NCBI RefSeq assembly: GCF_025384765.1
Contig: NZ_VHLL01000003.1
Span: forward strand, 186,001-250,000
Reading direction: 5' to 3'
Length of the DNA stretch: 64,000 bases
Source: Methanoculleus formosensis
GTDB lineage: Archaea; Halobacteriota; Methanomicrobia; Methanomicrobiales; Methanoculleaceae
The translations under genes were made by a program, and so were the position numbers. Numbering within the stretch: the stretch's first letter is position 1; each line of letters begins with the position of its first letter. Positions 42,879 to 51,134 of this stretch are shown here, piece by piece. The notes under the pieces are model-generated. The model saw nothing but the letters and a program-made list of their open reading frames with translations. It made no database searches and had not been told where the DNA came from.

Positions 42879-43950
42879 GGTGTCTCCTCATGTCTTTGAG
42901 TATGCTACTCTGGTGCTTCTGTGATCCTGCGAGTTCATCTTCCCTGAACGATGGGCCGTTTTCGGGAATGCAGAACCAGCAAGTAGGAATGAACTGTAAA
43001 GCGTGGTCTCATATTTGGTTTATAGGTTTTGTAATGATTCTACATGATAAATACCCCGGAGAGGGTGTCGAATACCGATAAAACCCTGCCGAATTGAAAT
43101 TTAAGCGACATAATGCCTCTATTTTTGGATATCATGTGAGATCTCTTCTGTGGATGCCCAACCGTGGGAGCCAGGATCTTCGCCGAAAAATGCCGTCCGG
43201 GAGAGAGGGAGGTCGTCCCAAAAAGATCTCCGAACCTTCGGTATACCTTAACCGAGTCCTTCCTTCCCGGTTATCTATCATTTGAACCACATTCTGGACA
43301 AGAAGGGTGAAACGGTTTTCCATTGGATATCGCCACTCGGGGGAGGATCCGGGAGAGGGTGTCCCCCTCCCGGCAATAGCGTTTTGGGACAACTTCAGGA
43401 TCTCGTGCCCGGTACGTGCCAGGGGTGTGCTGTCCGGGAAGTCGCGGTCGGACATCTCCCGGTGCTCCGTGAACAGGGGGCGTCGGGGTGAATAGACCAC
43501 TCGAGATGATAAAGGTAACATTGTTGTTCAGGCGCCTGCACGATCCTCTTTCAGGAAAGAGGTGCCGCACCCTCCCGGCCATCCAATATAAATGCGTTTC
43601 GAATCTATCTCACTCTTTCTCCAGAGCGAGGAAATCAGCCATCTGAGATCGCGTGGTCAAACCGCTATTCTGAAGAATGAACGGTATAATCTCCGAAACG
43701 TTCCATTATCTGCGGATGTCTTCTGGCAAAGATTATATCTCTGTTCAAGCACCGGGCTAGATCCCGCCTCTGGTATATAGCCCGATCGTTATGCAAGATG
43801 CACTCTGCAGCCTTTCCAGACGAAAAATCGTTCGATAGATATCTTTAAATATTGGCGGGTTCCCGGGGGGGATGCGGAGTCAAAATCGGGCCCACCCTGA
43901 AACCGGCAACCTCGAAGAAGGCTTCGCAATGTTAGTGAGGAGAAATAGAC
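42879..43950. other. Gene-free kilobase with MITE copy B
   Basis: No convincing gene. It holds AT-rich promoter-like sequence near 43010-43130 and the 188-bp MITE copy B at 43209-43396. Further AT-rich patches include CCAATATAAATGCG near 43582 and ATCTTTAAATATTGG near 43841. The last is a good TATA candidate for the TasA-like gene at 43951, about 100 bases downstream. Confidence 0.5.
43209..43396 (+). mobile_element. MITE-like element, copy B (188 bp)
   Basis: The left end is GAGGTCGTCCCAAAA. The right end, reverse-complemented, is GAAGTTGTCCCAAAA, identical to copy A at both ends. AGG flanks it on both sides (43206-43208 and 43397-43399), a 3-bp target duplication. The interior closely follows copy A, with scattered substitutions. 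It lies about 550 bases upstream of the TasA/SipW-like cluster. Confidence 0.85.
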
Positions 43951-44604
43951 ATGAAAGCATATCTTGTCAGTTTCCTGCTCGTCGGACTTGCTCTCGGCGG
44001 GATGGGACTTGGAACGTTTGCCTGGTTTACAGACCAGGAGACTGTAGAGAACAACGTCATTGCGACCGGCAATGTCGATCTGAAGGCATGGACTGAGGAT
44101 TGCTGGGGGAGGGTAGCACCGCTGAATGTCGACAATCTGGTCCCCAGTAAGAATACCTGGACGCCTGCGGGCGACATTAAACTCCAGAACGATGGAACTG
44201 TCCCCCTGAAGTGGAAGGCATACCTTGTCAAAACCGGTGGAGACCTCCCGACAGACGACAAACTCGAGTTCAAGTTTAAGAAGACTTCATGGCTTAACAG
44301 CGCGCCCGGTGAGGCCGCCGCCGATATAGAAGCCGCTGATGCCGAGCTCGACTCCCTGTTCCCGGGTGCCTCCAAAGTCTACACATGGTCGCAGATCTCC
44401 AACGCCGAGACCACTGAACTGAACTCGGACAACTTCGGGGGCGCGATGAACGACATCAATCCGTTTACCCGGACTCTCAGTGTCCATGTGAAGCTGGATG
44501 AGAACGCAGGGAATGTCTATTCCAACAAGGATGTAACATTCAAGGTAATCTTCATCGCGACGCAGACCGACAACCCCGGCTGGGCACAGACCTCTCCCGT
44601 GTGA
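43951..44604 (+). CDS. TasA/CalY-like secreted protein with SipW-type signal peptide
   Basis: A 217-residue protein. It starts at ATG 43951 after GTGAGGAGAAATAGAC. Residues 1-26 form a signal peptide that runs directly into GTFAWFTDQETVENN, the hallmark of SipW-dependent substrates (TasA, camelysin). The mature part is a beta-rich domain, with ATGNVDLKAWTEDCW, DIKLQNDGTVPLKWKAYLVKTGG and LSVHVKLDENAG. TasA forms extracellular fibres in Bacillus biofilms; a similar surface or fibre role is inferred here. The dedicated signal peptidase is encoded downstream at 45604. Confidence 0.88.
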   Translation: MKAYLVSFLLVGLALGGMGLGTFAWFTDQETVENNVIATGNVDLKAWTEDCWGRVAPLNVDNLVPSKNTWTPAGDIKLQNDGTVPLKWKAYLVKTGGDLPTDDKLEFKFKKTSWLNSAPGEAAADIEAADAELDSLFPGASKVYTWSQISNAETTELNSDNFGGAMNDINPFTRTLSVHVKLDENAGNVYSNKDVTFKVIFIATQTDNPGWAQTSPV

Positions 44605-45010
44605 TCCCTGAAAGATCTCTATCTACCACCAATCATGGACAGGAAGCAAGTGAGAAGGGATGGATACGATGCCTCCAAAGCCATCGCTACGCTTCCCCCT
44701 CCTCCTTCGCCTCATCCTGGAAAACGATCGCAACCGCCGTACGTGGGGGTATCGGCAGCGTCGAACTCTCGATGCCCCCTCCGGCGAATGCCGGCGACAC
44801 CATCACGCTCAGACCGCGGTGGGATGAGAACCTGCCAGGAATCTTCCACAAAACGCTCTTCAGGGATGATGAAGCGATCCGGAACCCGGGCAGAACTTAA
44901 TCTGGCCTCTTCCCGTGCGGGAGCAGCGGTGCGTGTCGTATTTCGAGCTGCAGGCAACGTGACCTGCTGCCCTTCACCCACGAACGCCATGATACAGAGA
45001 GCTGTGAGCG
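44605..45010. other. Gap inside the SipW/TasA-like cluster, possible gene remnant
   Basis: There is no intact gene with a good start. Stretches in two frames look protein-like: one ending at 44900 (ELSMPPPANAGDTITLRPRW) and one ending at 45018 (AAVRVVFRAAGNV). They could be parts of a frameshifted third secreted-protein gene. No ribosome-binding site supports expression. Promoter elements for the gene at 45011 are not obvious. Confidence 0.3.
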
Positions 45011-45607
45011 ATGAATAAGGCATACGTACTTCTGGTAATTATCAGTTGCGCCGGTGTGCTCCTGCTCGCGGGCACCACCCCGACCGGGGCGTGGTTCTCG
45101 GAGACGGAGGTGATCGAAGGGATCACCATCACCACCGGGTCGTGGAGCGATGCCGGCAGCCTGATAGTAACTGCCGATCAGGCCCTGCTCAAGCCGCCGG
45201 CAGGCAACCATGCAAAGACCGTCCTCTCCGGCATCACCGCGAGCAACACCGGATCTGAGCCGCTGGAAGTTACGGGCATCCGGGTCTCATGGGACCCCGA
45301 TGGCGGCGAGACGATCCGCCAGGCGGCGTTTACCCGCGGAAAGGGCGGTGAAGCCCCTCGTGCGGGGCCGCACGGGGCAGGTTCCGACCCGGGATCTGCC
45401 GGCGGCGAAGGGTTTACCGCCTTCTGGTCGGGGGAAGCGGCATCCGGCCAGGTCCTCGACGGCCGGCTTCTGCTGGACCCGTCAACACAAAATGATCCCG
45501 CACGAGGAGTCCTGCTCTCGTTTGACTCGAACATGGAGGGGAAGACCCTTGTGTGTACCCTCATCCTGGACGACGAGAGCGAGAAGGAGGTCCGGGTGCG
45601 GTTATGA
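45011..45607 (+). CDS. Second secreted protein with SipW-type signal peptide
   Basis: A 198-residue protein. Residues 1-27 form a hydrophobic signal (VLLVIISCAGVLLLAGT) followed by GAWFSETEVIEG, again the SipW-type WF-x-(D/E) motif. The mature part is beta-rich (ITASNTGSEPLEVTGIRVSW). It includes a low-complexity Gly/Ala/Pro insertion near 112-130. The C-terminal VCTLILDDESEKEVRVRL resembles the last strand of a TasA-type domain. It overlaps the signal peptidase gene by four bases (ATGA), so the two are translationally coupled. Confidence 0.82.
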   Translation: MNKAYVLLVIISCAGVLLLAGTTPTGAWFSETEVIEGITITTGSWSDAGSLIVTADQALLKPPAGNHAKTVLSGITASNTGSEPLEVTGIRVSWDPDGGETIRQAAFTRGKGGEAPRAGPHGAGSDPGSAGGEGFTAFWSGEAASGQVLDGRLLLDPSTQNDPARGVLLSFDSNMEGKTLVCTLILDDESEKEVRVRL

Positions 45608-46608
45608 TCCGGGTCGATCGGATCTGGAGGGTGATCGCCGTCCTCCTCGGCATGGTGATCCTGGCGGGTCTCTTCCTCTTCTTCGGGCCCGGCATGACGC
45701 TCATGATCGTCCTGAGCGGGAGCATGGCGCCTCTCATGCTGCCCGGGGACGCCATCGTTGTCGCTCCCGCGGACCCTGACCGCCTCGAGATCGGGGACGT
45801 CGTCGTCTTCCAGTATCCCGGAGAGGACGAACGCATGGTCATCACCCACCGGATCGTCGGTATCGATACAGATACCGGCCTTTATTCGACCAGGGGGGAC
45901 GCGAATAACGCCCCCGACCGTTTCTTCACCTCAAAGGACGATATCATCGGCAGACCGGTCTTTCTCATCCCGTTCGTCGGGTTTGCATCCGAGATGAAGA
46001 AGCAGATCATCCTCCTGATGGTTATCCTCCCTTCCCTGATGCTGGCCCTTCTGGAGACGAGAAGACTCGCGCGAGGTTCCCATTCCTCCCGCCTGCTCTC
46101 CCGGGAGAGTCCGGTACCGAAAGGGCAGATCTTCTCGATCCAGTACCCCCGGCTCTTTCTCCTCCTCTCCGTCGTTCTGGCCATCTTTCTCCTGCTGATC
46201 ATGCCCTCTCTCTCCGGGATACAGACCTACAGTCCCACCGCAGGCTCCCCTGATCTTCAGGGTCAGCACCTGACGATAGAGGGCAGGGGACTGATTCCGG
46301 AACTCTACCTGGTCTGCACGCCCGGCGAGCAAGGAACTCCTGCCTACGGGGTTGTGCAGCCCGGCGAGACGGTCACCGTCCCGGTCGCCGGGACAGACCC
46401 GGACTTCACCGTAGCCAGAGCCCCATACATCCTTCCGGCATTCTGGTTTGTGGGGCTTGCCGGGGTGAATCCCTATCTGCCGGTCCTCTCGCTTGCAGTT
46501 CTGCCGGGAGCCCTTCTGACACTCGCCCTGCACCCGCTCTGGGCGAAGGAAAAATTCGTGAAATCGCGCCGTAAAAGGAGGCTTGTTGAACGTGTACTGG
46601 AGAATTAG
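45604..46608 (+). CDS. SipW-like signal peptidase I (archaeal/ER type)
   Basis: A 334-residue membrane peptidase. An N-terminal anchor (about 8-30) is followed by the catalytic serine box VLSGSMAPLMLPGD and then by THRIVGI, which has His in place of the bacterial Lys. STRGDANNAPD carries the conserved Asp. The His variant marks the ER/archaeal/SipW class. Further transmembrane helices follow at about 130-150, 185-205 and near the C-terminus (LPAFWFVGLAG, VLPGALLTLAL). These extend well beyond the usual SipW length. It probably matures the two neighbouring substrates. The start ATG overlaps the preceding stop. Confidence 0.88.
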   Translation: MIRVDRIWRVIAVLLGMVILAGLFLFFGPGMTLMIVLSGSMAPLMLPGDAIVVAPADPDRLEIGDVVVFQYPGEDERMVITHRIVGIDTDTGLYSTRGDANNAPDRFFTSKDDIIGRPVFLIPFVGFASEMKKQIILLMVILPSLMLALLETRRLARGSHSSRLLSRESPVPKGQIFSIQYPRLFLLLSVVLAIFLLLIMPSLSGIQTYSPTAGSPDLQGQHLTIEGRGLIPELYLVCTPGEQGTPAYGVVQPGETVTVPVAGTDPDFTVARAPYILPAFWFVGLAGVNPYLPVLSLAVLPGALLTLALHPLWAKEKFVKSRRKRRLVERVLEN

Positions 46609-47632
46609 AAAATTCCAATCACTGACTTCAGAGAAGTTTACGCTGGTATTGCCGATCGTTATCGTATGTGTCATCATATCGGGATTTTTCGTGTATTCGA
46701 GCTGGTATATGCCGGAGTACAGGGATGTGACCGTCGATCTCCCCTGGTACTCCATAGGTGGCGAGTACGAGTACCGGGCGGTCGTCTCGGAGGGAAACCC
46801 ACTCTGGCCGGTTGGTACGACACTGACGGACAACCCCGTCTACTTCTTCGCGGCAACCCCGGAGCTGCAGACGACATTCACCTTCCTTGCCGAAGGGGAG
46901 GACGTGGATCTGGATGTGGTCTCGCATACGGTAGCGATTCTGTCGATGAAGGAGTCGGAGACGACCTACTGGAGCAAAGAGGTGGTGATCGCCGAGAATG
47001 CAGGGCCGCTAAAGTCAGGAGTATACCAGAACTCGTTCACTCTGGACATGGAGGATATGCAGCAGCGGATGAACGAGATCAGGGAGTACCTGGGCTTTCA
47101 ACGGGGAACCCCGGTCGTCGATCTCGTCACCACGACTGTATTCTCCGGAACGGTTGACGGGAAACAAGTCAACGAACACCGGGAGTATCTGATGCCCATC
47201 ACCCTGGGGGCAGGCCACTACAGCATATCAGATAACCGGAGTTTCGCCGAAGCGGTCACGGCGCGGCAGACAGAGACGATCGCGGTCTATCCCCCTCCAC
47301 ACCAGCAGTACGCCGCAGTGTTTCTCCTGCTGGTCTCGGTGGGTATGCTTCTCTGGGTCGTAATTTCACGGTCCCCGCGCTTCAAGCCCTCCGCCGATAC
47401 ACTTCAGGCGCTGGAGCAGGAAGCGGTGCATGCCCGGTATCGCGACTGGATGAGCCAGGGCAGGTTCGACCATAGTATCACAGCGCACAGAATTGAACTC
47501 GGTTCGCTTGAGGATATCATCAGTGCGGCGGTCGATATGAATCAGCGTGTCATCTATGACGATGACGAGAAGACCTACTTCTTCCTCCACGATGCCATCC
47601 TCTACGTCTACGAGCCGGCCGATTCAAGGTAG
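46592..47632 (+). CDS. DUF5305 membrane protein
   Basis: A 346-residue protein. AAGGAGG ends at 46581, so GTG 46592 is spaced best; TTG 46586 or 46583 would be alternatives. It has a transmembrane helix near 17-38, a large extracellular beta-rich domain (about 40-250, ending near MPITLGAGHYSISD), a second helix (VFLLLVSVGMLLWVVI) and a cytoplasmic tail of about 80 residues. This is the DUF5305 layout. The family co-occurs with SipW-like peptidases and TasA-like proteins in archaea. A role as assembly or anchoring factor for the secreted proteins is inferred. Confidence 0.82.
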   Translation: MYWRIRKFQSLTSEKFTLVLPIVIVCVIISGFFVYSSWYMPEYRDVTVDLPWYSIGGEYEYRAVVSEGNPLWPVGTTLTDNPVYFFAATPELQTTFTFLAEGEDVDLDVVSHTVAILSMKESETTYWSKEVVIAENAGPLKSGVYQNSFTLDMEDMQQRMNEIREYLGFQRGTPVVDLVTTTVFSGTVDGKQVNEHREYLMPITLGAGHYSISDNRSFAEAVTARQTETIAVYPPPHQQYAAVFLLLVSVGMLLWVVISRSPRFKPSADTLQALEQEAVHARYRDWMSQGRFDHSITAHRIELGSLEDIISAAVDMNQRVIYDDDEKTYFFLHDAILYVYEPADSR

Positions 47633-47655
47633 CCCAGCGGGGTGGCCGGTTCTTC

Positions 47656-47661
47656 TTTTTT
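47656..47661 (+). terminator. T6 terminator after the DUF5305 gene
   Basis: TTCTTCTTTTTT begins 18 bases past the stop at 47632 and probably ends the TasA/SipW-like transcript. Confidence 0.45.
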
Positions 47662-47771
47662 GTTCGTGGCTCCGGTTATCCGGTGGCCCGGGAGGAGAGC
47701 CGGCGGGGATTTTTCAGGCGGTTCACCGGCATATCTTTTCCGGATCTCATGCTGCTGGAGTTTATGCTCCT

Positions 47772-47960
47772 GAGGTTGTCCCAAAATCCCTTTGCCGGGA
47801 GGGGGACACCCCCTCCCGATCCCTCCCCCGAGTGGCGATACCCGATGGGAAGCCGTTTCACCCTCTTTGCCCAGGATAGAGAACAGAGGGGAGAAACCTC
47901 AGAGGTGGGTGTTCCGACCGGGGGGTAAGGGACGTTCAAGATCTTTTTCGGGATGACCTC
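47772..47960 (-). mobile_element. MITE-like element, copy C (189 bp, inverted)
   Basis: Read on the minus strand it begins GAGGTCATCCCGAAAA. Its other end, on the plus strand, is GAGGTTGTCCCAAAA. CCT flanks it on both sides (47769-47771 and 47961-47963), a 3-bp target duplication. The right half matches copies A and B closely, including the TATCGCCA core and the GGGGGTGTCCCCCTCCC palindrome. The left half has diverged. It lies 139 bases after the DUF5305 stop. Confidence 0.85.
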
Positions 47961-48107
47961 CCTGGCAAGTGAGCAGACCCCCGGAACCTTAACCGAGGCG
48001 GGCACCGGATACCGGACGCCTGCAGGGCCGTTAGGCCGGACATGTGAAGGTTCCGGCGACGCCGGGCGTATGCTGGCGCTACAGTACGCGCCGATGGAAT
48101 CGGTTAC

Positions 48108-48506
48108 CTATCCCTCATATGTCCTGACCTTCAGCCCCGGAACGCGGGTGAAGTGACTGTCCCGTGTGACGATCTCGCCGTCGCCCGCGAGCGTGATTGC
48201 GGCAATCACCTCGTCGAAATCCCCGATCCGACTTCCCCTTGCCTGGAGTTCGGCAGCGAGGGTGCCGAAGATCCGGTAGGTCTCCTCGGTGATCGGCAGT
48301 TCGATCAGCGCCCGCGTGATCGCTTCGACTTCCCGGAGGTTCTCCTGCACCGATGTTGAGAGGAACGCCCCGCGGTAGAGTTCGAGGGCGTTGATTGCGG
48401 TGGTTGCAAGGGGCAGCCCTTCTCGCTCCATCGCCTTGAGTGTCCTCATCGCCTCCGGGTCATGTCGGATCAGGTCGATGAGGAACGATGTATCAAGCGT
48501 CGGCAT
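48108..48506 (-). CDS. vapC: VapC-type PIN-domain toxin
   Basis: A 132-residue PIN RNase. Acidic residues: D5 (LDTSFLIDLIR), E42 in INALELYRGA, D95-D98 (IGDFDEVIAAITL) and a final TRDSHF segment with D115. This is the complete VapC set. It overlaps the antitoxin gene by 14 bases and is translated second. PIN toxins cleave tRNA, rRNA or mRNA and are held inactive by the cognate VapB. It is probably co-transcribed with its antitoxin. No degradation is apparent. Confidence 0.9.
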   Translation of the reverse strand: MPTLDTSFLIDLIRHDPEAMRTLKAMEREGLPLATTAINALELYRGAFLSTSVQENLREVEAITRALIELPITEETYRIFGTLAAELQARGSRIGDFDEVIAAITLAGDGEIVTRDSHFTRVPGLKVRTYEG

Positions 48507-48732
48507 CGAGGTCGACCTCTCGCATCGAAGCCTTTCGCATCTCGCGCGAGGCTTCCGCGACCGAGTCAGCCAGCGCGGGGTTCGGCCCGAGTTCTTTGAG
48601 GATCTCCGAGAGTTTCTTCTTCGGCAGGGTATACTTCAGGATCACTTCGGAAAAACTCATGTTGGAGGGGCCTTTTAGCCGCGAGAGCCTCTCGTATGCG
48701 TCGTCGCTGATACTGATCGTCCTGGTTCCCAT
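48493..48732 (-). CDS. vapB: VapB-like antitoxin
   Basis: A 79-residue protein from ATG 48732 (MGTRTISISDDAYERLSRLKG), preceded by AGGT. The frame is open further upstream, but that part is not convincing. The N-terminal strand and helix resemble the ribbon-helix-helix antitoxins that bind DNA. The C-terminal half (KKKLSEILKELGPNP, then SREMRKASMREVDLD) is a charged helix that would wrap around the toxin. It lies upstream of the vapC gene and overlaps it by 14 bases. Confidence 0.85.
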   Translation of the reverse strand: MGTRTISISDDAYERLSRLKGPSNMSFSEVILKYTLPKKKLSEILKELGPNPALADSVAEASREMRKASMREVDLDADA

Positions 48733-48786
48733 ACCTGTGTATGTGTATGTGCATGTATTTAGATCCTCCCGTCGCAAGAGGATCCT

Positions 48787-49995
48787 TCAAAACCTCACCA
48801 GCCCCCGTCTCCCGATCAGCATCCACCCTGCGAGACACACGACCCCGACCGCCACGTTGATCGCCCCGAGGCCGAGGACGAGATTCTCCCCGGCAAGGAA
48901 GACGAGAACCATCCCGGCGCTGCCGAAGACGAGGCCTGAGCAGTTGATCAGGGCGGATGCGGAGCCGGTATCCTCCTCCTGCTGGTCGAGCATCAGGAAC
49001 GCTCCCGGGGAACGCACAGAGCTCCCCATCAGGGAGGCGGGAAAGAGGGCGAGGGCAAAGACAAGCGGTCCCAGGCTCCCGAAGAGGCAGACGAGGACGC
49101 CCCCGGCGACCATGACAGCGAACCCGGACGCGACGATCGTCCTGCGGGAGATATGTCGGGAGAGCCAGAGATAGAGGAACGGGCCGGCAATCAGGGCAAT
49201 GGCGTTGAGGGCAAAGTAGAAGCTGTACCCCTGCTCCGAGAGCCCGAACCCCTCCTGGTAGATATACGACGAGGCGGAGACGAACGCGAGCGATGCAGTG
49301 CTCACGAGCGAGAAGACGATGAGGAGCGAGGCGAAACCGGGGTTCTTGAGCACCGTCCCGAGCCGGCGGACGGACTGCTTCATGGTGCCGGCATACCGCG
49401 AGGGGATGGTCTCCTGGAGGAGGAGGCCGCCGACCATCGAGACGACCCCGATGAGGGCAAGCACCACGAAGAGGCCCCGCCACGATGTGTAGGGGAGCAT
49501 GAACGCCCCGAGGACCGGGGCGACGGCGGGCGAGATGACGACCATCGACTGGACGATCGCAAGGACTGACTCCCTCTTCCTCCCGTCGTAGACGTCCTTG
49601 ACCATCGCGGTCGCGACTGCAGCAGCGGCGCTCCCCCCGACTGCCTGGAGGATGCGGAAGGCGATCAGGTGCCATATCGCGAGCGACGCAGCGCAGCCGA
49701 TGCTTGCGGCGATGTAGAGCGCGAGCCCGGCAAGCAGGACGGGCCGGCGGCCGTATTTGTCGGAGAGCGGCCCCCAGAAGAGCAGCCCGAGGCTGAAGAA
49801 GAGGAAGAAGAGGATCAGCGTCAGGTTGGTGAGGCCGGCGGAGACGCCGAAGTAGTCCCCCATGCCGGGAAGGGCGGGGAGGTAGAGGTCGGTCGAGAGC
49901 GGGACGAAAGCGGAGAGCAGTGCGATAAGAACAACAAGACCGCGATCCCCGAGATATTTCTGGGAGATCTTCTCTCGGTCCTGGGATTTGTCCAT
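48787..49995 (-). CDS. Bcr/CflA-type MFS drug exporter
   Basis: A 402-residue protein with twelve hydrophobic helices. It has the Bcr/CflA features: SAFVPLSTDLYLPALPGMGDYFG at the N-terminus and the loop motif GPLSDKYGRRPVLLAG (motif A). RILQAVGGSAAAAVATAMVKD contains a motif-B-like Arg, and VVISPAVAPVLGAFM is motif C. It probably exports small drugs or metabolites in exchange for protons. The start is ATG 49995. It lies just upstream of the VapBC genes on the same strand, with 54 bases between. Confidence 0.9.
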   Translation of the reverse strand: MDKSQDREKISQKYLGDRGLVVLIALLSAFVPLSTDLYLPALPGMGDYFGVSAGLTNLTLILFFLFFSLGLLFWGPLSDKYGRRPVLLAGLALYIAASIGCAASLAIWHLIAFRILQAVGGSAAAAVATAMVKDVYDGRKRESVLAIVQSMVVISPAVAPVLGAFMLPYTSWRGLFVVLALIGVVSMVGGLLLQETIPSRYAGTMKQSVRRLGTVLKNPGFASLLIVFSLVSTASLAFVSASSYIYQEGFGLSEQGYSFYFALNAIALIAGPFLYLWLSRHISRRTIVASGFAVMVAGGVLVCLFGSLGPLVFALALFPASLMGSSVRSPGAFLMLDQQEEDTGSASALINCSGLVFGSAGMVLVFLAGENLVLGLGAINVAVGVVCLAGWMLIGRRGLVRF

Positions 49996-50352
49996 GGGAG
50001 CGCCTCGGGGGCAGGTGTCGAAGAACAGGATGCTATGGGGCCTTCGCCTGCCTCCGCTTATACGTTGAACTTGCCCATAGTTCTAGATTGGCATTCCCGG
50101 GCCGTCCGGTCACGGCCGGCGGCTCCCGGGAAGGATTTTGCAGGTTCCTGCAACGGCCGGAAGCGCGGCCGGGGGCAACCCTGCTCGTTCACGACTCGCC
50201 GGCAAACAGCCTCTCTTCGCGCCCTACCCCTGCGAACACTATCCTGATCGTCGAAAGAGGCCCATGGTCAGCGAACGCTGTGAGCGCCTCCTTCGCCCAC
50301 CTTACGGATATATACGATCAGCGCCTCAACCGGGCGCCCGGAGGATGCAAGG
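49996..50352. other. Intergenic region
   Basis: No gene or repeat is recognised. CTTATACGTTGAAC near 50058 may be a promoter for the exporter gene (minus) or for an unknown transcript. The sequence just before 50353 contains GGAGGATGCAAGG, the ribosome-binding site of the YkgJ-like gene. Confidence 0.4.
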
Positions 50353-50829
50353 ATGGAGAACCCACCGGACAATCTCTGCGTCACGCGATGCCCCAACCAG
50401 CGCTGTTGTAAACAGTTGAGCGGCCTTATGCTGACGAGAGACGAGTACGAGACGCTGTTCAAGAGCCACGAGGAGAACCTTCTCGTGAAGCAATCCGACG
50501 ACATTTACGTCATAACGCCGAGAGACGGTGCCGCCTGTCCGCACTTATTTCAGGACGGCTGCGCCGTCTATCCGGACAGGCCGCTTGACTGTCGGCTATA
50601 TCCGTACATGATGACGGGGGTTGCGAGGAATGGGGATCGGCTCAAGGTTTTCCTGAAGGGCAGTCTGCGTTGCCCATTAGCGGTGGCGCTGATGCCGGAG
50701 GCCGAGGCGCGGGCGCTTGTCACGGAGTTCTGGAGAAAGGCTGCCGGGGAAGGGATGGATATCATCGTCCGACCTGAGTCGGAACTTGTCTACCAGCTCC
50801 GGTCCTGGATCCGGGCGTTAACTCGTTGA
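50353..50829 (+). CDS. YkgJ/CxxC-type metal-binding protein
   Basis: A 158-residue protein starting at ATG 50353 after GGAGGATGCAAGG. It has the YkgJ pattern: an N-terminal CVTRCPNQRCC, then CPHLFQDGCAVYPDRPLDCRLYP, then a later Cys in SLRCPLAVA. These cysteines probably bind Zn or an Fe-S cluster. The C-terminal half is helical. The family is widespread in archaea and bacteria and has no firm function. No signal peptide. It is followed by tRNA-Glu on the opposite strand. Confidence 0.85.
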   Translation: MENPPDNLCVTRCPNQRCCKQLSGLMLTRDEYETLFKSHEENLLVKQSDDIYVITPRDGAACPHLFQDGCAVYPDRPLDCRLYPYMMTGVARNGDRLKVFLKGSLRCPLAVALMPEAEARALVTEFWRKAAGEGMDIIVRPESELVYQLRSWIRALTR

Positions 50830-50871
50830 GCGGGAAGTTGCCGTGCGAAAGAACGGTTCGGGAGAACAGAA

Positions 50872-50946
50872 TGCTGCTATGGGGATTCGAACCCCAGTCG
50901 CAGGAGTGAGAGTCCTGCATGATTGGCCGGTCTACACTATAGCAGC
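50872..50946 (-). tRNA. tRNA-Glu (CTC)
   Basis: A 75-nt cloverleaf. Acceptor stem GCTGCTA/TAGCAGC, discriminator A. The anticodon stem CAGGA/TCCTG encloses CTCTCAC, giving anticodon CTC. T arm TGGGGTTCGAATCCCCA. The acceptor stem is identical to that of the TTC isoacceptor at 5892-5964. No CCA is encoded. Confidence 0.93.
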
Positions 50947-51134
50947 GCATTGCACCAACGTGCTCTAAATTATTAGTCTTTATCGTATTTAAACCTGTCT
51001 TGAACCCTACCTTCTCCGGCCGTCCCTCGGACCGGACAATCTGAACCCTATATGGGGCGGAATTTTCCCTTCGCTCCCTGATTTCCATCACAGACACCAA
51101 TAAGTAGCTTCCCCGCATACCTGTATCGGCAGCA

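Follow-up and report, generated by a model that had tools for sequence, protein, structure and literature searches.

TasA-like fibres are known from Bacillus, whose biofilms are held together by a fibre of this kind, and from two hyperthermophilic archaea. A run of four genes in Methanoculleus formosensis raises the question of whether a methanogen also carries a locus for a fibre of this kind and, if so, how such fibres might be processed, started and anchored in an archaeon. The genes lie in a window of 64,000 nucleotides (the whole stretch of DNA analysed here, to whose positions all unlabelled coordinates refer), and a sequence-only reading had described them as an archaeal counterpart of the TasA-SipW system with a DUF5305 partner. 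We favour, with a probability of roughly 0.68, the view that this is a surface-fibre operon of the TasA/archaeal bundling pili type with an archaeal processing and anchoring membrane module. A fibre-locus function is likely; fibre formation is suggested by the relatives of the first gene product, and the role may extend to biofilms.

Organisation of the operon

The four open reading frames are found at the coordinates first given for them, and are listed here with the adjoining features:

43844..43851, plus strand: TATA-like box (tttaaata), about 100 nt 5′ of gene A, by consensus match only
43951..44604, plus strand: gene A, 217 aa, TasA/camelysin-family secreted protein with a SipW-type signal (PF12389, TIGR04088; by profile and fold)
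44605..45010, plus strand: A-B spacer, 406 nt, conserved, possible small ORF
45011..45607, plus strand: gene B, 198 aa, second SipW-type signal protein, of GxW type (TIGR04088, position)
45604..46608, plus strand: signal peptidase (S26), 334 aa, with two extra membrane helices and an outside domain (TIGR02228, SEC11 matches, invariant residues, hydropathy)
46592..47632, plus strand: DUF5305 protein, 346 aa (PF17231, model, fold search)

The proposal that these genes form one coupled run stands for B, the peptidase and DUF5305: B and the peptidase gene share the 4 nt of an ATGA (45604-45607), and the peptidase gene overlaps that of DUF5305, which starts with GTG, by 17 nt (46592-46608). It does not stand for A, which lies upstream of B at a distance of 406 nt. 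Eight Methanoculleus genomes have the genes in the same order, A-B-S26-DUF5305, and thus the arrangement is not due to chance; all four frames are open in all eight, and gene A is 99% identical to the copy in ‘Methanoculleus sp. UBA77’. The TATA-like box is identical in seven of the eight loci and reads TTTATATA in the remaining one. A ninth genome, from another genus, has the order A-short S26-long S26-DUF5305.

The spacer between A and B is conserved over the eight genomes and contains a possible small ORF with a conserved ATG, whose end overlaps the start of B (ATGA) in several of them. This frame is open in some relatives and broken in three of the eight, including the M. formosensis window, where the break is a one-base difference in a run of C. 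Coding was not supported by a codon-position test, in which substitutions were nearly even over the codon positions; the spacer may represent a small gene in decay, or else a leader RNA.

Gene A and the TasA superfamily

The SipW-type motif after the signal, previously noted in both secreted proteins, is present in each (GTFA-WFTDQE in A and PTGA-WFSETE in B), and both pass the NCBIfam model of the SipW-dependent signal, TIGR04088 (cut-off 19), A with 36.3 bits and B, narrowly, with 20.2. A also passes the Pfam camelysin model PF12389 (27 bits, cut-off 22.5). A profile built from 22 members of the A family, all of which match PF12389 at E 0.1 or better, matched TasA, in crystal and fibre entries, in a PDB profile search (5of1, 9.6e-7; 8aur, 1.3e-6) over positions 32-194, the mature length, with a weak further match to AbpX (9sj2, 0.025); a PDB sequence search with a single A or a single B sequence gave no matches.

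Structure prediction of A, a check that had been named beforehand, gave a fold of the TasA/AbpA type. The AlphaFold2 model (pLDDT 74, and mostly under 50 in the N-terminal donor region) found as its first match, in a PDB fold search, AbpA of the Pyrobaculum bundling pilus (7ueg, probability 0.99), with modest scores (TM 0.34-0.39, E 1.8e-3) that are supportive rather than strong, followed by weak matches to the cannula protein CanA (9hdi and 9h8b, E 0.01-0.04). Membership of A in the TasA superfamily is thus supported by profile and predicted fold, not by the motif alone, and we propose A as the predicted major fibre subunit.

Gene B resembles A only at its signal

The link to TasA had been drawn by motif for both substrates; it survives for A (profile of about 1e-6, AbpA-type fold) and is unsupported for B, whose likeness is that of the signal region only. 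The two proteins align only there and just after, hhalign found no match between their mature parts, the B profile found no significant solved relative in the PDB, and no relation of B to TasA, A or TapA was detectable beyond the signal region. Iterative profiles did join A and B, and the match was lost once the signal region was removed; it was therefore signal-driven, and B was rejected as a TasA homologue.

Loci of other lineages have a SipW-type protein, mostly with the G-x-W signature, directly upstream of the long S26 gene. Methanosarcina-like loci have much larger proteins in the position of B: one of 1343 aa (locus L083, 413-4444), whose N-terminus resembles that of B and which contains repeated PKD-like stretches, and one of 659 aa (locus L080, 2728-4707). 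Both carry SipW-type signals and are candidate fibre-tip adhesins. From its position, rather than from homology, B itself may be a cap, an initiator or a tip/adhesive subunit.

The signal peptidase and its predicted substrates

The third frame was correctly described as a His-type signal peptidase with extra membrane segments. It matches TIGR02228 (98.6 bits, cut-off 51.85), its best solved matches are SEC11 chains, and Ser40, His82, Asp99 and Asp105 are invariant in 24 sequences; the invariant residues and the TIGR02228 match identify it as an archaeal-type S26 enzyme with Ser-His catalysis. By hydropathy, two more helices lie C-terminal to the catalytic part, around an outside segment of some 80 residues (about 203-281), and this extension is conserved as a family. 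The score of the peptidase against the Bacillus SipW equivalog NF046067 (70.7 bits, cut-off 190) makes it a relative and not the same equivalog.

A and B were the only proteins above the cut-off when the genome was searched with TIGR04088, and no more than two S26 genes were found there, one in the operon and one elsewhere. As one of the two adjoins the only SipW-type signals, we infer that the operon peptidase cleaves A and B; these counts support a peptidase dedicated to the pair, with its cleavage of them a prediction.

Several TasA-like loci have a second, short S26 gene beside the long one (L029, 6978-7451; L068, 4134-4622; L078, 9417-9905; L088, 8286-8765), and the short and long enzymes may each serve different substrates.

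DUF5305 as partner of the peptidase

The fourth frame encodes, as suggested, a DUF5305 membrane protein: it matches PF17231 over 1-217 of 217 (1.2e-44, 152.8 bits against a cut-off of 29), and its model (pLDDT 89.8) has a helix at 16-39, an Ig-like beta ectodomain at 42-232, a second helix at 236-259 and a small cytosolic domain. A fold search returned generic Ig/FN3-like sandwiches only, and DUF5305 is not named in the literature searched.

The pairing of DUF5305 with a signal peptidase proved far wider than the single locus at which it was first noticed. We inspected 49 DUF5305 loci, taken from Methanoculleus, from further Methanomicrobiales and from across the phylum, a non-random sample in which relatives are not independent; a long S26 gene was at the same locus in 47 of these 49 archaeal loci, lay within 400 nt of DUF5305 in 37, and overlapped or abutted it in 17. 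Since there are few S26 genes per genome, chance adjacency of the two is negligible. DUF5305 is absent from Bacillus subtilis and Haloferax volcanii, both of which score with the SipW-type signal model, and thus SipW-type export in itself does not require it. Linkage and topology suggest that it may be an anchor.

DUF5305 might also be a sensor, standing outside the fibre base, whose ectodomain reads the secreted proteins or the envelope and whose cytosolic domain signals inward. The conserved cytosolic domain (residues about 268-340) exceeds the need of a passive anchor; however, no known signalling domain was recognised in the protein, and its strict pairing with peptidase and fibre type fits assembly equally well or better, so that we consider a sensor unlikely.

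DUF5305 follows the type of fibre locus across archaea

We compared with NCBIfam ten proteins that have GTGAFTSV-type N-termini and come from ten haloarchaeal DUF5305 loci: every one matches the fimbrial family TafE, and nine match the fimbrial family TafA as well, with scores below the equivalog cut-offs. Archaeoglobi-like genomes (an assignment that is a guess) have either DUF1102 proteins at the DUF5305 locus or, where the locus is of a second type, TasA-like proteins. When 45 DUF5305 proteins were placed in a maximum-likelihood tree, the ones encoded at TasA-like loci formed a single clade (98/94), together with two unlabelled members, L083, which carries a SipW-like protein missed by the profiles, and L086, which is at the end of a contig. 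Both types of DUF5305 occur, once each, in two genomes (G263 and G228), and each of these proteins groups by locus type and not by genome. Thus the DUF5305 tree follows locus type rather than genome, and DUF5305 tracks the substrate class, as would be expected of a cognate part of a fibre system.

We tentatively suggest, as an idea that falls somewhat short of an even chance, that the extended peptidase and DUF5305 are a general archaeal fibre-assembly platform for two or more subunit families that look unrelated: TasA-like proteins (methanogens and Archaeoglobi-like genomes) and Taf/DUF1102-like proteins (haloarchaea and Archaeoglobi-like genomes). In this platform the peptidase would cut and hand over the subunits and DUF5305 would hold the fibre base. 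If this is true, chaperone-usher machines would have a single-membrane counterpart in it. The new element is the extended peptidase and DUF5305 module, linking TasA-like and Taf-like fibre loci, and the uncharacterised DUF5305, being tied to fibre genes across the phylum, becomes a testable assembly factor.

Comparison with known fibre systems

Donor-strand assembly has been reported for both TasA and the archaeal bundling pili (PMC9674648, PMC9715654). In B. subtilis, tapA and sipW overlap by their stop and start codons, and TapA starts the fibre (PMC10151520). The Methanoculleus locus shares with TasA-TapA-SipW a TasA-family major protein, SipW-type signals, a dedicated archaeal-type signal peptidase, and the overlap of the peptidase gene with that of a minor secreted protein; it differs in its order (A-B-S26), in a peptidase with an outside domain and two more helices, in having a DUF5305 partner, and in that B is not recognisably TapA.

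The archaeal bundling pili (AbpA of Pyrobaculum calidifontis and the AbpX type of Pyrodictium) provide the best fold match for A, 7ueg, and the weak profile match, 9sj2, although their organisms, unlike Methanoculleus, are Thermoproteota. CanA of the Pyrodictium cannulae is the second-best fold family for A, but the match is weak and cannulae are tubes. Haloarchaeal Taf fimbriae (TafA, TafC, TafE) share the same pair of long S26 and DUF5305, found beside TafE/TafA-like genes, whereas the haloarchaeal secreted proteins are of another family (DUF1102/Taf) and their DUF5305 proteins lie on separate branches of the tree; NCBIfam models found no TafA, TafC or TafE protein in A or B. A literature search on Taf fimbriae gave no match in the papers searched.

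A proposed route to the fibre

We propose that A would leave through Sec and stay tethered by its signal helix until the dedicated peptidase cuts it before WFTD, which would free an N-terminal strand. By donor-strand exchange this strand could then complete the beta sandwich of the following A subunit, and a thin fibre would be built. B, produced alongside the peptidase in the way that TapA is in Bacillus, would take the part of cap, initiator or adhesive end; and the outside domain of the peptidase, with the Ig-like ectodomain of DUF5305, may be a membrane platform that receives the cut subunits and anchors the fibre. As a compact gene set from a methanogen genus, the locus bears on how TasA-like fibres are processed, started and anchored in archaea, and on methanogen attachment and aggregation.

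A and B could instead be monomeric, non-polymerising surface or S-layer-associated proteins that the dedicated peptidase frees, the camelysin label then denoting a surface protease or matrix protein. Pfam does name PF12389 a metallo-endopeptidase, and a polymer of A is a prediction; but A contains a single histidine and lacks an HExxH motif, and its relatives of known fold (TasA, AbpA and CanA) form fibres or tubes. We regard monomeric proteins as improbable and retain the fibre operon as the preferred reading.

Distribution and genomic site in Methanoculleus

A is present in eight of 35 Methanoculleus genomes, with DUF5305 above the cut-off in the same eight; the locus is facultative within the genus. 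The interval that holds it, 42879-51134, is bounded by a conserved acyl-CoA synthetase gene and by a GTPase gene. In single-contig genomes of 2.48 Mb and 2.79 Mb this interval is only 2.3-2.6 kb and contains no remnant of the operon, and in other Methanoculleus genomes it reaches up to 11 kb with unrelated genes. Thus the operon is a clean presence/absence trait at a variable site.

This patchy distribution (eight of 35), at a variable site between conserved genes, and the two flanking copies of a dispersed repeat would suit an accessory cluster that the strain gained recently, makes little use of and carries without a selected function, but the four frames open in eight genomes, the third-position excess and dN/dS of about 0.2-0.45 in B, and the conserved promoter region and overlaps make this very improbable.

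The unrelated genes of the interval in other genomes include two that stand side by side, encoding a 277-aa protein whose CxxxCxxC motif is radical-SAM-like and a 555-aa protein.

The repeat is a 110-nt inverted pair (85%) at 43291-43400 and 47768-47877. We considered these copies as ends of a transposon belonging to the operon; this was ruled out by the 38 full or partial matches to the repeat in the genome, some of them at contig ends, and the repeat is probably a MITE- or REP-like element. Directly 3′ of the operon, on the minus strand (48108-48777), is a VapBC-like toxin-antitoxin pair.
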